From the NCBI GenBank assembly GCA_027068915.1, contig JAMOLT010000008.1, positions 1 to 45,845 on the forward strand: a stretch of DNA of 45,845 nt, in the 5' to 3' direction. Source of the DNA: Sedimenticola sp. GTDB taxonomy: Bacteria > Pseudomonadota > Gammaproteobacteria > Chromatiales > Chromatiaceae. A program made the translations under genes and the position numbers. Below, in pieces: positions 1-25,915 of the stretch (positions within the stretch are counted from its first letter, which is position 1; the number at the start of each line of letters is the position of its first letter). The notes below the pieces were generated by a model. It saw only the letters and a program-made list of their open reading frames with translations. It was not told the origin of the DNA and did not search any database.

Positions 1-72
1 TGGATGACGGGGCTTGAACCCGCGACGACCGGAATCACAATCCGGGACTCTACCAACTGAGCTACATCCACC
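1..72 (-). tRNA. tRNA-His (GUG), 3' end cut by window edge
   Basis: Read on the minus strand, the segment folds as a tRNA: acceptor GTGGATG, D arm TAGCTCAGTTGGTAGAG, anticodon loop TTGTGAT with anticodon GTG, and T loop GTTCAAG. The extra G at position 72, before the first acceptor pair, is the G-1 typical of tRNA-His. The last acceptor bases and the CCA lie left of position 1, so the gene is partial here. It is the last visible member of a leftward tRNA cluster with tRNA-Pro and tRNA-Arg. Confidence 0.93.
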
Positions 73-88
73 ATAAACTTTGCGTATT

Positions 89-264
89 TGGCACGCCCGG
101 CAGGATGATTCGCCCCATCCCTGGAGCACACCCCTGTGGGGCCACGCTACGCGTGTTCGAATTTGCTCCCGGCAAATTCGTCGAACCTGACTGTTTGATA
201 CGCAGGTTCGCTTCCTGCCTGAACAACAATATCCAAATTCTCTGGAATACGCTGTTCTTTTCTA
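89..264 (-). repeat. 176-bp tandem unit, copy 1, with tRNA-Arg 3' fragment
   Basis: The unit starts with the 18 bases that form the CCA and acceptor/T-stem end of the intact tRNA-Arg at 441-517. These are followed by a 74-bp hairpin element (107-180), then nine bases that resume the tRNA T loop and stem (181-189), then about 75 bp of spacer. The spacer side contains a dyad, CGAACCTG (182-189) and CAGGTTCG. The next unit begins exactly 176 bp later. Differences from copy 2 are about five substitutions, all inside the hairpin element. No intact gene is present; reading frames across the unit are artefacts. Confidence 0.85.
107..180 (-). repeat. Multi-hairpin element inserted in tRNA-Arg T loop, copy 1
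   Basis: This 74-bp block interrupts a tRNA-Arg 3' fragment between the T-stem sequence ending CAGGAT (106) and TCGAACCTG (181). In plus orientation it holds four consecutive dyads: GCCCC/GGAGC (one mismatch), CCCC-TGT-GGGG, CACGC-TAC-GCGTG, and CGAATTTGC-TCCCG-GCAAATTCG. The same order and the same TCCCG loop recur at 283-356 and, with different stem bases, at 698-761. I do not recognise a named repeat family. Confidence 0.75.
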
Positions 265-440
265 TGGCACGCCCGGCAGGATGATTCGCCCCATCCCTGG
301 GGCTCTCCCCTGCGGGGCCACGCTGCGCGTGTTCGAATTTGCTCCCGGCAAATTCGTCGAACCTGACTGTTTGATACGCAGGTTCGCTTCCTGCCTGAAC
401 AACAATATCCAAATTCTCTGGAATACGCTGTTCTTTTCTA
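265..440 (-). repeat. 176-bp tandem unit, copy 2, with tRNA-Arg 3' fragment
   Basis: This is the second unit of the tandem array and abuts the intact tRNA-Arg, whose own CCA end starts at 441, again 176 bp on. It has the same parts as copy 1: tRNA-Arg 3' fragment (265-282), hairpin element (283-356), T-arm remnant (357-365) and spacer ending with the same bases before 440. The array looks like repeated duplication of the tRNA-Arg 3' flank, and the functional gene supplies the last partial copy. Confidence 0.85.
283..356 (-). repeat. Multi-hairpin element inserted in tRNA-Arg T loop, copy 2
   Basis: This 74-bp element differs from the one at 107-180 at about five positions. The substitutions mostly fall in hairpin loops (CCCC-TGC-GGGG, CACGC-TGC-GCGTG) or restore pairing (GCCCC with GGGGC), so all stems are intact. 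The terminal hairpin CGAATTTGC-TCCCG-GCAAATTCG is identical to copy 1. It sits at the same T-loop position, between CAGGAT and TCGAACCTG. Confidence 0.75.
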
Positions 441-517
441 TGGCACGCCCGGCAGGATTCGAACCTGCTACCCTCGGCTTAGAAGGCCGATGCTCTATCC
501 AAATGAGCTACGAGCGC
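441..517 (-). tRNA. tRNA-Arg (UCU)
   Basis: The minus-strand sequence is a complete 77-nt tRNA: 5' acceptor GCGCTCG, D arm TAGCTCATTTGGATAGAGC, anticodon loop CTTCTAA with anticodon TCT, T loop GGTTCGAATCC, and an encoded CCA at 441-443. The anticodon loop and overall layout match the gammaproteobacterial argU-type gene. It lies 54 bp downstream (leftwards) of tRNA-Pro. Its 3' end is the source, or the last copy, of the tandem 176-bp array at 89-440. Confidence 0.95.
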
Positions 518-571
518 AGAGAATCGCATCTGGCACAAAGAATTCAATCCATCCTGCCGCATTACGAATAT

Positions 572-648
572 TGGTCGGGGTAGAGAGATTCGAACTCCCG
601 ACATCCTGCTCCCAAAGCAGGCGCGCTACCAGACTGCGCTATACCCCG
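572..648 (-). tRNA. tRNA-Pro (UGG)
   Basis: The minus-strand sequence is a complete 77-nt tRNA: acceptor CGGGGTA, D arm TAGCGCAGTCTGGTAGCGC, anticodon arm CCTGCTTTGGGAGCAGG with anticodon TGG, T loop AGTTCGAATC, and encoded CCA at 572-574. The C1 start is typical of bacterial tRNA-Pro. A damaged second copy lies upstream at 688-806. Confidence 0.95.
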
Positions 649-687
649 AAAACCATCCTTGCTGAATCCATTCTCACTCTCTACACC

Positions 688-806
688 GTAGAGAGATTAC
701 AAAATGCATCCTGCATTTTGCCCTGCGGGTCGCGCGCTAAAATCGCTCCCGGCGATTTTTATCGAACTCCCGACATCCTGCTCCCAAAGCAGGCGCGCCA
801 CCCCGA
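688..806 (-). pseudogene. tRNA-Pro pseudogene: D arm deleted, hairpin element in T loop
   Basis: The segment matches the intact tRNA-Pro at 572-648 over the anticodon arm and T stem: TCGAACTCCCGACATCC and CTCCCAAAGCAGGCGCGC occur in both. Two changes break it. Most of the D arm is missing, because GCGCGC is followed almost directly by the acceptor bases CACCCCGA. A 64-bp hairpin element (698-761) is inserted in the T loop. The anticodon arm is intact. It is the first unit after the cluster promoter, so it is probably transcribed, but it cannot form a normal tRNA without removal of the insert and a compensating D arm. Confidence 0.8.
698..761 (-). repeat. Multi-hairpin element inserted in tRNA-Pro T loop
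   Basis: This insertion of about 64 bp falls between GAGAGAT and TCGAACTCC of a tRNA-Pro copy, the same T-loop point used in the tRNA-Arg fragments. Its dyads follow the same order: CAAAATGCA-TCC-TGCATTTTG, CCC-TGC-GGG, and AAAATCGC-TCCCG-GCGATTTT. The loops ATCC, TGC and TCCCG are shared with the Arg elements, while the stem bases differ on both arms together. That covariation indicates a conserved fold. Exact ends are ambiguous by one or two bases. Confidence 0.75.
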
Positions 807-837
807 ATTTCGCTTCCACCTTCTGCGAAGGCGGTGC

Positions 838-866
838 ATGATACTCAAGGCCGCAATGATAGTCAA
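838..866 (-). promoter_or_regulatory. Sigma70 promoter of the tRNA cluster
   Basis: On the minus strand a -35 TTGACT (861-866) is followed by a 17-bp spacer and a -10 TATCAT (838-843). Directly downstream is a GC-rich discriminator (GCACCGCC), as in stringently controlled stable-RNA promoters. Transcription would start near 831 and run left through the tRNA-Pro pseudogene, tRNA-Pro, tRNA-Arg, the 176-bp repeats and tRNA-His. A small leader hairpin (CACCTTC/GAAGGCG, about 819-836) lies right after the start. Confidence 0.7.
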
Positions 867-941
867 TCTGTGATGTAATTCTGTGCTGAGATATCAATAG
901 GGATTATCATATGGAAGGCTTTTCAAACAGGAGACATAATT

Positions 942-1400
942 TTGAGGAAAATCATATCGCTCAGCCTGTTCCTGGGTATCGCTCTGGTGACCACACAGGC
1001 GCTGGCGGGAATGTACCGCTGGACAGATGACCAGGGCAATGTGGTTTATTCACAGACCCCTCCGCCGGACAATCGACCGGTAAAGCCCATTGCTCCCCCG
1101 CCTCCTCCGGCAGCCGCCCCCCAGGAGGCCAGGGAGAAGGTTCAGAAACTGCAGCAACAACTCGACAACATTGCTGCGGAAAGAAAGGAAAAGCAGCAAG
1201 AACAGGAACAGGCGGAACAGGAGCGCAAAGCCAGGGCGGAAAAATGCACCGCAGCAAAAAAAGCACTGCAGACAATAAAAGAAAGACCTTCCAGTACGCT
1301 TTGGCGGCTTCCTGACGGAAGCTACCAACGGTTTACCGTGGAAGAAAGGGAGACGCAGATTGGTGCATTGAACAAGTCCATCCAAAAAAACTGCCCATAG
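942..1400 (+). CDS. DUF4124 domain-containing exported protein
   Basis: This 152-residue protein begins with a signal peptide (about residues 1-22, MRKIISLSLFLGIALV...ALA). The DUF4124 signature MYRWTDDQGNVVYSQTPP follows directly. A proline-rich linker and a long charged Gln/Glu/Lys/Arg coiled-coil region (about 65-105) come next, then a short tail with three cysteines in the whole mature part. The start is TTG at 942, with AGGAGA seven bases upstream; no in-frame ATG fits better. The family is periplasmic and without known function. It is 8 bp upstream of the MIF-like gene and may be cotranscribed with it. Confidence 0.85.
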   Translation: MRKIISLSLFLGIALVTTQALAGMYRWTDDQGNVVYSQTPPPDNRPVKPIAPPPPPAAAPQEAREKVQKLQQQLDNIAAERKEKQQEQEQAEQERKARAEKCTAAKKALQTIKERPSSTLWRLPDGSYQRFTVEERETQIGALNKSIQKNCP

Positions 1401-23653: not shown

Positions 23654-25915
23654 TCAGGAAGCCAGCTTGGGCCGGCCCCTGGCATCACTATCTGCGTAGC
23701 CATAGTAGTTATAGTCATACTGATAATCATACCCATAGCCGCTGCGTCCCTGCCCGTATTTGACCAGCAGCGTTCCCAGCACCTTGGCGCGCGCCTGCCG
23801 CAGACGTTGCACTGCGCCCTTGAGCGCACCCGTGCGGGTAACCCCCGCATCCACCACCACAATGGTGGCTCGGGCCAGGTTCGCCAGTATCAAAGCATCG
23901 GCCAGCCCCAGCACCGGCGGCCCGTCGATAATCACCAGATCAAATTTTTCCTCTGCTGTTTGCAAAAACTCCATCATCCTGCCGCTTCCCAGGAGCTCGG
24001 CGGGGTTCGGCGGCAGCGGGCCGGCTGTCATCACATACAAGCCATCCACAATGCCCTGCTGGAGAACCTCACTGGCCTTGTAACCACCAGCCAGGTGGTT
24101 GGTTAAACCAGCTTCATTGGGAAGATCAAGCTCACTGTGCAGCGATGGGTTGCGCAGATCAGCATCCACCAGCAGCACGTTTGCCCCGCCTTGCACATAC
24201 GTCAGGGCAAGGCTGACTGCAGTGGTGGTTTTCCCCTCTCCGGCAATGGAGCTCGTTACATGCAGTATTTCCGGAGAGCCAGACGGTAAGGAAAACGACA
24301 GTGCTGTCCGGCAGGAACGATAGGCCTCGGCAATCGCTGATTTCGGCTCCATGCAGGTTTTCAGCGCCACCGATTCGGCATCATTCTCCAGGCGCAGCTC
24401 CGGAATAACGCCCAGGACAGGCAGCTCGACAAGCTTTTCAAGCTCGGATGTCGATTTGATCGTGTCATCCAGGTGTTCGAACAGGAAAGCCAGACCTATG
24501 CCACCCAACAGACCAATAACCAGTGCAATCTGCAGATTTTTCATCAGGTTGGGCTTGTAGGCGGCGCCCGGCACTTCGCCTTTGTCAATAATGGAAATGT
24601 TATTGGCCCCTACTCCCGCAGCCACACCAACCTCCTTGATACGCTGCAAGAGGCCGTCATACAGCTCGCGGTTGGTCTCCACGTCCCGTTTTAGCGCCTG
24701 GTAATCCGTACTCTTGCGTTGCAGGTCGAGAATCTGCCCCTTGATATCCGCCATGCGCGACTGCAGCATGGCCTGCTCTCTCACCGCCGCCTGATAGCTG
24801 CTTTTGATGGAAGATTGGATGCCTGCGCTTTCTTCGGCAACCTTGCGCTCAAGCTCCTCGATCTGGCCTTTCAGTCGCTGCATCTTCGGATAGGCTGGCT
24901 TGAATACACGCAGATTATCCTCATATTCTCCCTCCAAATCCGCCAGTTTTTCCTTGTAGGACTGAATCACTTCACTGGCGGAAATCTGCTCAAAACCCTG
25001 TGCGCCGCTGTTTTTCATCTCTTGAAATCTGGACTCCGCCTTGATCCTTTCCGCCTCAACGTCCGTCAGCCTGGCGTTCAGCGCCTGAAGCTTCTGCATC
25101 AATATGCCTTGCTTGGCATCCATGTCCACAATTGCCCTTTCACCGGCATATTCCACCAGCTTTCGTTCCGATCCTTCCAGATTGGCCCGGACTTGCTTGA
25201 TGCGATCAGAAAGAAAGGCTTTTGCATAGGAGGAGTTTTCGAAGCGCCTCTCCATGGTGGTATCGATAAAACTCTTGGCCAGTGTATTCACCACTTTGGC
25301 CGCCAGCTCGGGATTCGGGCTGTCATAGCTTACAACCACCAGCCGGGAGTTCTTTATCGGGCTGACCGTCAGATTCGCCAACAGGAGATGCTCCAGTCCC
25401 GCGGTGCCAGTGGTATTTTCCGCCTTGCCACCATCCCCATGGCTTTCGCCGGAAAAAAAACCTTTCACTTCCCGGAAAAAGGAAGGTTTTTCTTCTGCCC
25501 TGAACTGGTCTGATGATTCCAGTCCCAGTTGCTCGACGACCCGCTTCGCCAGCCCGCGGCTTTTCAGTAGCTGGTACTGGGTTTCATAGAAATCATAACT
25601 GTATGCCGACTCCCTGGGGGTAACCCCTTCGAAGTTGACGATTCTCGCGGCCTCCCGGTCAATTTGCAGTTTCACACTGCTGCGATAGAGCGGGGTTTGC
25701 AGGGATGTAGCAATAGCACTGGCTACTAGCGCAATCAGGGTAAAGAGAATAATCGTGAACTTGTGTCGGACAATGACCAGCCAATAATCCTTCAGGTTCA
25801 GCCCTTCTTCATCATCGAAACCGCCTTGCACCCTCTCATACAAAGCAAGCTCACGCTCCTCGTCTGACAGGGCCAACACATTGCGCGGCAGCGGCTTGGG
25901 GTTTTCAGGGTTCAT
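23654..25915 (-). CDS. Wzc-type polysaccharide biosynthesis tyrosine autokinase
   Basis: This 753-residue protein is a BY-kinase fused to a Wzz-type co-polymerase. The N-terminal Wzz domain includes membrane segment FTIILFTLIALVASAIA; a long periplasmic coiled-coil (about 220-420) with a GNVR-like end follows; the second membrane segment is LQIALVIGLLGGIGLAFLF. The cytoplasmic kinase has Walker A SIAGEGKTTT (about 555), Walker A' VLLVDADLRNP (about 583) and Walker B LVIIDGPPV (about 660). A C-terminal tyrosine cluster (nine Tyr, about 718-740) is the expected autophosphorylation site. It controls chain length and export with the Wza-like protein, and is presumably reversed by the phosphatase at 26935. 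Confidence 0.95.
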   Translation of the reverse strand: MNPENPKPLPRNVLALSDEERELALYERVQGGFDDEEGLNLKDYWLVIVRHKFTIILFTLIALVASAIATSLQTPLYRSSVKLQIDREAARIVNFEGVTPRESAYSYDFYETQYQLLKSRGLAKRVVEQLGLESSDQFRAEEKPSFFREVKGFFSGESHGDGGKAENTTGTAGLEHLLLANLTVSPIKNSRLVVVSYDSPNPELAAKVVNTLAKSFIDTTMERRFENSSYAKAFLSDRIKQVRANLEGSERKLVEYAGERAIVDMDAKQGILMQKLQALNARLTDVEAERIKAESRFQEMKNSGAQGFEQISASEVIQSYKEKLADLEGEYEDNLRVFKPAYPKMQRLKGQIEELERKVAEESAGIQSSIKSSYQAAVREQAMLQSRMADIKGQILDLQRKSTDYQALKRDVETNRELYDGLLQRIKEVGVAAGVGANNISIIDKGEVPGAAYKPNLMKNLQIALVIGLLGGIGLAFLFEHLDDTIKSTSELEKLVELPVLGVIPELRLENDAESVALKTCMEPKSAIAEAYRSCRTALSFSLPSGSPEILHVTSSIAGEGKTTTAVSLALTYVQGGANVLLVDADLRNPSLHSELDLPNEAGLTNHLAGGYKASEVLQQGIVDGLYVMTAGPLPPNPAELLGSGRMMEFLQTAEEKFDLVIIDGPPVLGLADALILANLARATIVVVDAGVTRTGALKGAVQRLRQARAKVLGTLLVKYGQGRSGYGYDYQYDYNYYGYADSDARGRPKLAS

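Follow-up and report, generated by a model that had tools for sequence, protein, structure and literature searches.

Hairpin elements at the T-loop site of tRNA fragments in a Sedimenticola tRNA array, and their likeness to the tRNA-linked repeats of Escherichia coli

What are the sequences that interrupt fragments of two different tRNAs at one and the same position, and how did they come to lie next to intact copies of the same genes? This question is raised by the start of a 45,845-nucleotide stretch of Sedimenticola sp. DNA (the whole stretch is called the window here), whose minus strand begins as a tRNA array in the order Pro-Arg-His. A preliminary description had reported three hairpin inserts at 107-180, 283-356 and 698-761, all at a single T-loop site and with intact tRNA genes beside the damaged copies. 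These observations could be confirmed: the insert, which we call E, lies twice in a copy of the tRNA-Arg 3' end and once in a 5' copy of tRNA-Pro, each time at GTTCGA^ATC on the tRNA strand (3 of 3 copies), and both tRNA-Arg (441-517) and tRNA-Pro (572-648) are present in intact form. We find that the inserts belong to cassettes with a definite anatomy and site, that their stems covary, that they are spread over many genomes, and that they resemble the repeats of the E. coli tyrT region. It is probable, in our judgement, that the two Arg cassettes encode a structured RNA consisting of a clamp and the four-hairpin E, and, as part of the same explanation, that they are tRNA-linked repeats (TLR) of the RtT kind, with the tRNA-Pro copy as a mirror-type relative upstream of its tRNA.

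The Pro-Arg-His array and the anatomy of its cassettes

Two tandem units of 176 bp (89-264 and 265-440, 97% identical) lie 3' of tRNA-Arg, and a third, divergent copy stands before tRNA-Pro. The Arg fragments consist of the tRNA 3' end and the T-arm 5' strand only, and the Pro fragment is a 5' part of its tRNA. The 18-bp 3' end of tRNA-Arg occurs three times, at 89, 265 and 441, and each Arg unit combines it with an antisense copy of the T-arm. On these antisense copies (202-219 and 378-395, computed; 671-684, by eye) the preliminary description had been silent. The features are as follows.

1-71, minus strand: tRNA-His gene, truncated by the contig end (RF00005, 3' cut)
89-221, minus strand: TLR/RtT-type cassette 2, adjoining tRNA-Arg (model R2, 73.8 bits, E 1e-16)
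89-106, minus strand: tRNA-Arg 3' end copy (ATCCTGCCGGGCGTGCCA), arm P1 of cassette 2 (repeat family D3, 3 copies, 100% identical)
107-180, minus strand: insert E copy 1 (H1-M1-M2-H2) at GTTCGA^ATC (model R1 match 112-180, 80.2 bits)
202-219, minus strand: antisense T-arm of tRNA-Arg (minus strand GGCAGGAAGCGAACCTGC), P1 prime and start of H0 (inverted repeat I3, 89% complementary)
265-397, minus strand: TLR/RtT-type cassette 1, adjoining tRNA-Arg (R2, 77.8 bits, E 1.1e-17)
265-282, minus strand: tRNA-Arg 3' end copy, arm P1 of cassette 1 (repeat family D3)
283-356, minus strand: insert E copy 2 (R1 match 288-356, 85.5 bits)
288-303, minus strand: hairpin H2 of E copy 2, AGGGAT in loop (fold prediction)
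307-317, minus strand: hairpin M2 of E copy 2 (CCCCGCAGGGG; fold prediction)
319-331, minus strand: hairpin M1 of E copy 2 (fold prediction)
334-356, minus strand: hairpin H1 of E copy 2, loop CGGGA (fold prediction; covariation)
378-395, minus strand: antisense T-arm of cassette 1 (inverted repeat I4; 0 of 200 shuffles)
441-517, minus strand: intact tRNA-Arg(TCT)
572-648, minus strand: intact tRNA-Pro(TGG)
671-684, minus strand: antisense T-arm-like stretch of tRNA-Pro, 3' of the insert (by eye; similar layout by eye in congener loci L119, L056 and L305)
688-697, minus strand: T-arm 3' strand of tRNA-Pro (ATCTCTCTAC; sequence reading)
698-761, minus strand: insert E copy 3, within the tRNA-Pro 5' fragment (R1 703-760, 52.7 bits; R2 697-786, E 5e-5)
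762-802, minus strand: tRNA-Pro 5' fragment, D-arm end to T-loop (repeat family D2, 98% identical to 590-630)

In the cassettes, the antisense copy of the tRNA T-arm and acceptor pairs with the fresh copy of the tRNA 3' end to form a clamp (stem P1). Past P1 there is a GA/GA (or Watson-Crick) step, followed by a short hairpin, H0, which carries the T-stem 5' strand, and E bulges out after the GA, in what would be the T-loop. E itself folds into four hairpins, namely H1 (loop CGGGA), M1, M2 (CCCGCAGGG) and H2 (whose loop includes AGGAT or AGGGAT); the middle hairpins of the Pro copy are predicted to be short or weak. The linker facing the insertion point read GA in 17, TT in 5 and TC in 2 of 24 aligned cassettes, with GA on the opposite side in all 24. 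A tandem GA motif is noted for RtT RNA in PMC7657543.

Of the mapped T-loop copies, 28 lie downstream of an intact tRNA, and 21 of these have an antisense copy of the 3' third of the tRNA on their left (matched by no more than 2 of 200 shuffles; loci L255 and L115 are apparently the same contig, so that this count includes one repeat), as do 4 of 42 trailers that are not followed by an E. Among the upstream, Pro-like copies none of nine reached the threshold in a shuffle test for an arm on the right side, and the antisense arm beside Pro-type copies is therefore a matter of sequence reading. A loose test of P1 pairing separated poorly (at least 9 of 10 positions paired in 19/33 cassettes with their own arm and in 281/914 with swapped arms). 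When the geometry of P1 and H0 was fixed, for 29 of these 33 cassettes, the own-locus mean was 12.17/14 paired positions versus 10.99/14 with the right arm of another isotype, and at least 13/14 were paired in 11/29 own and 54/688 other-isotype combinations (0 of 2000 permutations). The tRNA trailer was duplicated past the cassette in 29 of 57 loci.

Covariation of the fold and spread of the cassette

The preliminary description had also proposed a conserved fold on account of stem bases that change together, and this proposal was supported. For the three copies and on both strands, the single-strand folds of E were more stable than shuffled sequences (z -3.8 to -5.8), which equalled them in 0-1 of 200 cases. 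Covariation was scored in three alignments, with shuffles that ignore relatedness. An alignment of 21 E copies (A2) had 95.7% paired cells, with 15 of 22 pairs changed on both sides (0/500 shuffles). For whole cassettes (A3, comprising 24 of 40), double changes were present in 25 of 41 pairs, giving a score of 0.305 compared to 0.130 after shuffling (0/500). Finally, 11 Arg and 2 Pro cassettes of congeners, fitted to the model structure (A4), showed double changes in 21 of 39 pairs; here H1 was 99.1% paired, with 7 of its 9 pairs doubly changed. Either structural selection or template switching within palindromes would be sufficient to keep such diverged stems paired.

The gap between tRNA-Arg and tRNA-His varies among the congeners. 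It holds two units in this genome and in G007, one in G005, G008, G012 and G013, one together with the remnant of an antisense arm in G001 and G009, only the remnant in G004, and nothing in G006. Across this gap the H1 stems diverge widely in sequence and keep their pairing (the 99.1% of cells given above for A4). At the loci of G009, G001 and G007 (L312, L313 and L314) the match to tRNA-Arg(TCT) is confined to its 3' 42 nt, and no tRNA-Arg is detected by ARAGORN; upstream of this 3' half is a long insert that resembles, on our reading, a group I intron carrying a homing-type gene, and Rfam models at gathering scores detected no intron in tRNA-Arg of these three genomes.

A plain-DNA query with one copy retrieved from its own genome only itself and chance words, and a structure model was therefore needed to chart the spread of E. 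A pattern made of two loops gave 4 matches in the window against 0.05 expected, of which three fall on two of the E copies, one of these being matched twice, and the fourth is an unrelated site at 25612; in 92 genomes it gave many chance matches, from which true copies were chosen by reading the loci. Model R1, built on E alone from A2, matched 44 of 85 relatives at E 0.001 (its loci are 80 places among the matches listed). Outside the window, it gave two further matches in the same genome, at C10:22592-22657 in the D-loop of a tRNA-Ser and at C22:7768-7833, where the fetched stretch holds no tRNA. The preliminary description had envisaged that such a search might yield only the three copies and no preferred site, or a REP family inserted at random; instead, many genomes matched, and neither outcome was seen.

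A flank-blind H1 pattern matched at least 118 stretches of GTDB genomes. In 80 of these it gave 91 matches, in Pseudomonas, Klebsiella, Alloalcanivorax, Nitrococcus, Rhodanobacter and others, and 30 of the 91 lay within 500 bp of a tRNA. Both sets were merged into 128 non-redundant loci (86 of 106 listed rows, the 20 weakest being omitted; 213 of 223 matches with enough flank; like left flanks removed). An intact tRNA lay within 500 bp at 47 of the 128 compared to 0 of 31 chance-pattern loci, which leaves 81 E-type loci without one in the fetched stretch; the target specificity that the preliminary description suggested for the element may accordingly not extend to all copies. Eight loci in Pseudomonas, Alloalcanivorax and Klebsiella (L194, L199, L203, L206, L209, L245, L250 and L261) carry a related form with A-rich (CAAAA-like) ends and have no tRNA within 500 bp.

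To follow the cassette as a whole, a second model (R2) was built from 24 cassettes, none of them of the window's genus. At E ≤1e-4 it matched 113 of 274 sampled gammaproteobacterial genomes. Rfam model RF00391 at E 1e-3 matched 43 of 229 genomes, 15 of them above the cut-off, and among 14 controls E. coli alone. The R2 loci are 60 places among the matches listed, the better ones of this model. After removal of four matches of L379 (the same place as L356) from 124, we counted 120 R2 matches in 89 loci, of which 24 hold two or more units. For 83 of the 120, the end of the match agreed at 15 or more of 18 positions with the 3' terminus of a tRNA or tmRNA lying upstream on the same strand, 7-80 nt before the nearest unit, and for 75 the identity was 18/18. 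This tally leans to tRNAs, since R2 includes the tRNA end and the loci were drawn from its better matches. The 83 belong to Gln (30), Ser (24), Arg (11), Tyr (8), Glu (6), Pro (3) and tmRNA (1); the remainder had a poorer 3' match (30) or no intact tRNA in the fetched stretch (7). The same kind of cassette was seen behind tmRNA, whose tRNA-like end has a T-arm, at L162 135-200 (G052) and at L338 (G104). A repeat described as 22 copies in E. coli K-12, of function not known, is thus matched, in this survey, in about four in ten sampled gammaproteobacterial genomes, next to at least six tRNA isotypes and tmRNA, and its covarying fold includes the copy of the tRNA tail. This breadth makes function and origin testable by comparison. 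It also calls for caution in annotation, since apparently broken tRNA fragments of this type are probably parts of a structured cassette.

Insertion sites of E and the origin of the cassettes

That tRNA loops are a preferred site, as had been proposed from the three copies in the window, is borne out by its recurrence across many genomes. Split sites were mapped into a neighbouring tRNA for 49 of 137 and 26 of 91 copies, of which a few map by chance (L129, L196, L227 and L242 among them); the mapping requires an intact neighbour, so that the intact copy alongside is there by construction. The commonest split is in the T-loop at GGTTCGA^A. Other splits lie in the D-loop of tRNA-Ser (L151, L160, L059, L066), in the anticodon loop of tRNA-Ser(CGA) (L107, L158) and in the T-loop on the antisense strand of Phe, Asn and Met tRNAs (L109, L124, L070, L114).

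Copies also occur in other surroundings. In G026, a copy (L156 591-651) lies in frame within a DEAD-box helicase gene whose product matches PF00270 and PF00271 and has about 22 extra residues relative to CshA, between conserved motifs. For other copies in G026 (10 sampled) and in G084 (9 sampled) the shared sequence extends beyond E. At L141 and L147, E lies within larger repeats with ends that look by eye like long inverted repeats, and at L171 and L146 (G015) it apparently sits inside an ATTGCG palindrome, which we take to be REP-like. The occurrence of E-type hairpins in D-loops and anticodon loops, on both strands, and within the helicase gene gives E the look of a small mobile hairpin element, and its dispersed copies, with the one inside a gene, hint at a source for the cassettes. 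None of the Y1-transposase genes of this genome could be linked to it. The literature search returned REP and MITE papers, and none that by its title or the start of its abstract dealt with insertion into tRNA loops. We also considered a general targeting of hairpin loops for the copies away from tRNAs, and rejected it: their flanks pair little better than swapped flanks, exceeding the 95th percentile at 8 of 81 loci away from tRNAs (4 expected; rank test p 0.01) and at 6 of 47 near tRNAs (2.4 expected).

The arrangement of the cassettes suggests how they might work. Read-through from the tRNA would transcribe the cassette, the transcript would fold into clamp and E, and the nucleases that mature tRNAs would release it by a cut at the tRNA-like 3' end, which would explain why this end stays identical to that of the tRNA. 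An RNA product cut from the tRNA precursor in this way is likely, as judged from sequence. At 17 of 55 loci a terminator-like signal separates the cassette from its tRNA, so that co-transcription is not assured. The direct repeats of the tRNA 3' end could allow RecA or slippage to alter the number of units. As to origin, the TLR/RtT RNAs of gammaproteobacteria may descend from a mobile E hairpin inserted 3' of GA in the loops of tRNA genes, with the intact tRNA kept by local duplication alongside and the insert becoming an RNA that rides on tRNA processing. We put this forward tentatively, at somewhat less than an even chance. If true, it would explain how a repeat already known in 1978 arose, and it predicts as its footprints insertions in T-, D- and anticodon loops on both strands.

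The main competing explanation is that E is purely selfish, a REP- or MITE-like element that uses a single-strand (HUH-type) mechanism to enter DNA on the 3' side of (Y)GA, meets tRNA loops through their TTCGA and folds as DNA without RNA function. Such an element would leave the signature seen in the non-redundant loci, where the base preceding E is A in 108/128 and the base at -2 is G in 74/128; the insertions in D-loops, anticodon loops and antisense T-loops mostly obey GA^ on E's own strand. Its mobility would fit the many copies outside tRNAs, those within larger repeats in G026 and G084, the in-frame helicase copy, and the lack of target duplications at the tRNA splits, as judged by eye. 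It does not predict, however, that the antisense partner is kept in three quarters of the copies downstream of an intact tRNA (the 21/28 above), that the tRNA 3' end is exact in 75 of 120 R2 matches, or that stems covary at an orthologous site, and the four Y1-transposase (Y1_Tnp) genes of the genome have no credible E alongside (best 14.1 bits, E 0.057). We regard a purely selfish E as a serious possibility, on balance doubtful.

At the att sites of tyrosine recombinases, too, an intact tRNA is followed by a fragment of its 3' end, with crossover at the T-loop or the anticodon loop, and the fragments could on this resemblance be read as integration scars (attR) around an unrelated hairpin. 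This is very unlikely, given that the same architecture occurs at Gln, Ser, Arg, Tyr, Glu, Pro and Val tRNAs and tmRNA, that 5' fragments upstream of tRNAs (the Pro copy in the window, L064, L066 and L158) are not attR-like, and that the units read, of ~140-220 bp, have no integrase-sized gene inside. An artefact of assembly or sequencing might be suspected where a contig starts inside a tRNA array and repeats break assemblies, but we consider its probability negligible: the same cassette is found in eight congeners (G005, G008, G009, G001, G007, G012, G013 and G010) and in a finished E. coli genome.

Relation to known repeats and RNAs

The preliminary description knew of no named family with these properties. 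This view is refuted, since the Arg copies fit the architecture of E. coli TLR and RtT (RF00391). According to PMC8144298, a TLR (Egan and Landy 1978, Rudd 1999) is a repeat that directly follows a tRNA or rRNA gene, its last 18-19 bp are identical to the gene's 3' end, one to five copies occur per locus, and E. coli K-12 has 22 TLRs at ten loci, with no known function; a phenotype claimed for the tyrT repeat in 1991 was retracted. The same source states that three TLRs beside 5S genes (rrA, rrB and rrF) are transcribed and processed, that rrB is located behind a first terminator, and that recognition of the rrB repeat by RNase E is suggested by its authors; CsrA binding is predicted there for these three, the other 19 TLRs scoring below 0.01. 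RtT members near Asn and Lys tRNA genes of Actinobacillus are described in PMC4986893, and a change in number of a 175-bp rtT repeat in Salmonella in PMC2658671. The literature consulted, with few subscription papers, contained no report of TLR outside enterics and Pasteurellaceae.

The two Arg copies share the 18-bp 3' identity (three copies, 100% identical) and the repetition (two 176-bp units) of TLRs; the Pro copy, a 5' fragment upstream of tRNA-Pro, lacks the 3' identity. By sequence reading, the E. coli K-12 tyrT repeats have the same order of parts, and the Arg cassettes have the RtT architecture with covarying helices as in these repeats. Held out from training, the window was recovered by R2 (Arg copies E 1.1e-17 and 1e-16, Pro copy E 5e-5), as were four repeats of the E. 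coli tyrT region (E 8e-19 to 1e-20), two of which were training members. With R1, the E. coli insert reached at most 17.5 bits, so that, at the level of sequence, the dispersed E family is but weakly tied to the E. coli insert. RF00391 itself gave no match in window positions 1-1000 at its gathering score or at E up to 1, and none in the genome. It scored above threshold at tRNA-Tyr in a congener (G010, L118; 64 bits versus 45) and in Nitrococcus mobilis (L239; 48.2). When 20 loci were scanned at E up to 0.5, its matches overlapped the cassette at 11, including nine sub-threshold matches (E 5e-5 to 0.16) at Gln, Tyr, Val, Glu, Pro and Ser loci, and it found nothing at the other nine, among them the Arg cassettes L110, L174 and L180.

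E has in common with REP/BIME sequences and their RAYT transposases that short hairpins are dispersed, and some enterobacterial BIME clusters resemble rtT (PMC2965389). It differs in its set of four hairpins with a single orientation and in the absence from A2 of a GTAG or CGTC tag (tags as given in PMC3733652), and in its own genome no link to a flanking RAYT gene was found. Compared to the rrA, rrB and rrF sRNAs, which are processed from a stable-RNA precursor in E. coli (PMC8144298), the cassettes share the TLR family and the GGA motifs; those sRNAs are linked to 5S rRNA, whereas here the GGA-bearing loops are, by analogy, only suggestive of CsrA sites. E. coli TLRs agree with the Arg cassettes in lying directly downstream of a gene, in the 18-bp 3' identity and in the range of copy number. 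The cassettes described here differ in their many families (Arg, Gln, Ser, Glu, Val, Pro and tmRNA), in the H1 loop CGGGA of the window and in upstream (5') variants at tRNA-Pro, Ser and Gln. The Rfam model of RtT RNA (RF00391; E. coli rttR) misses the window; with this RNA the Arg cassettes share the tandem GA motif and the whole succession of antisense arm, GA, H0, GGTTCGA, insert, GAGTA and tRNA 3' end.
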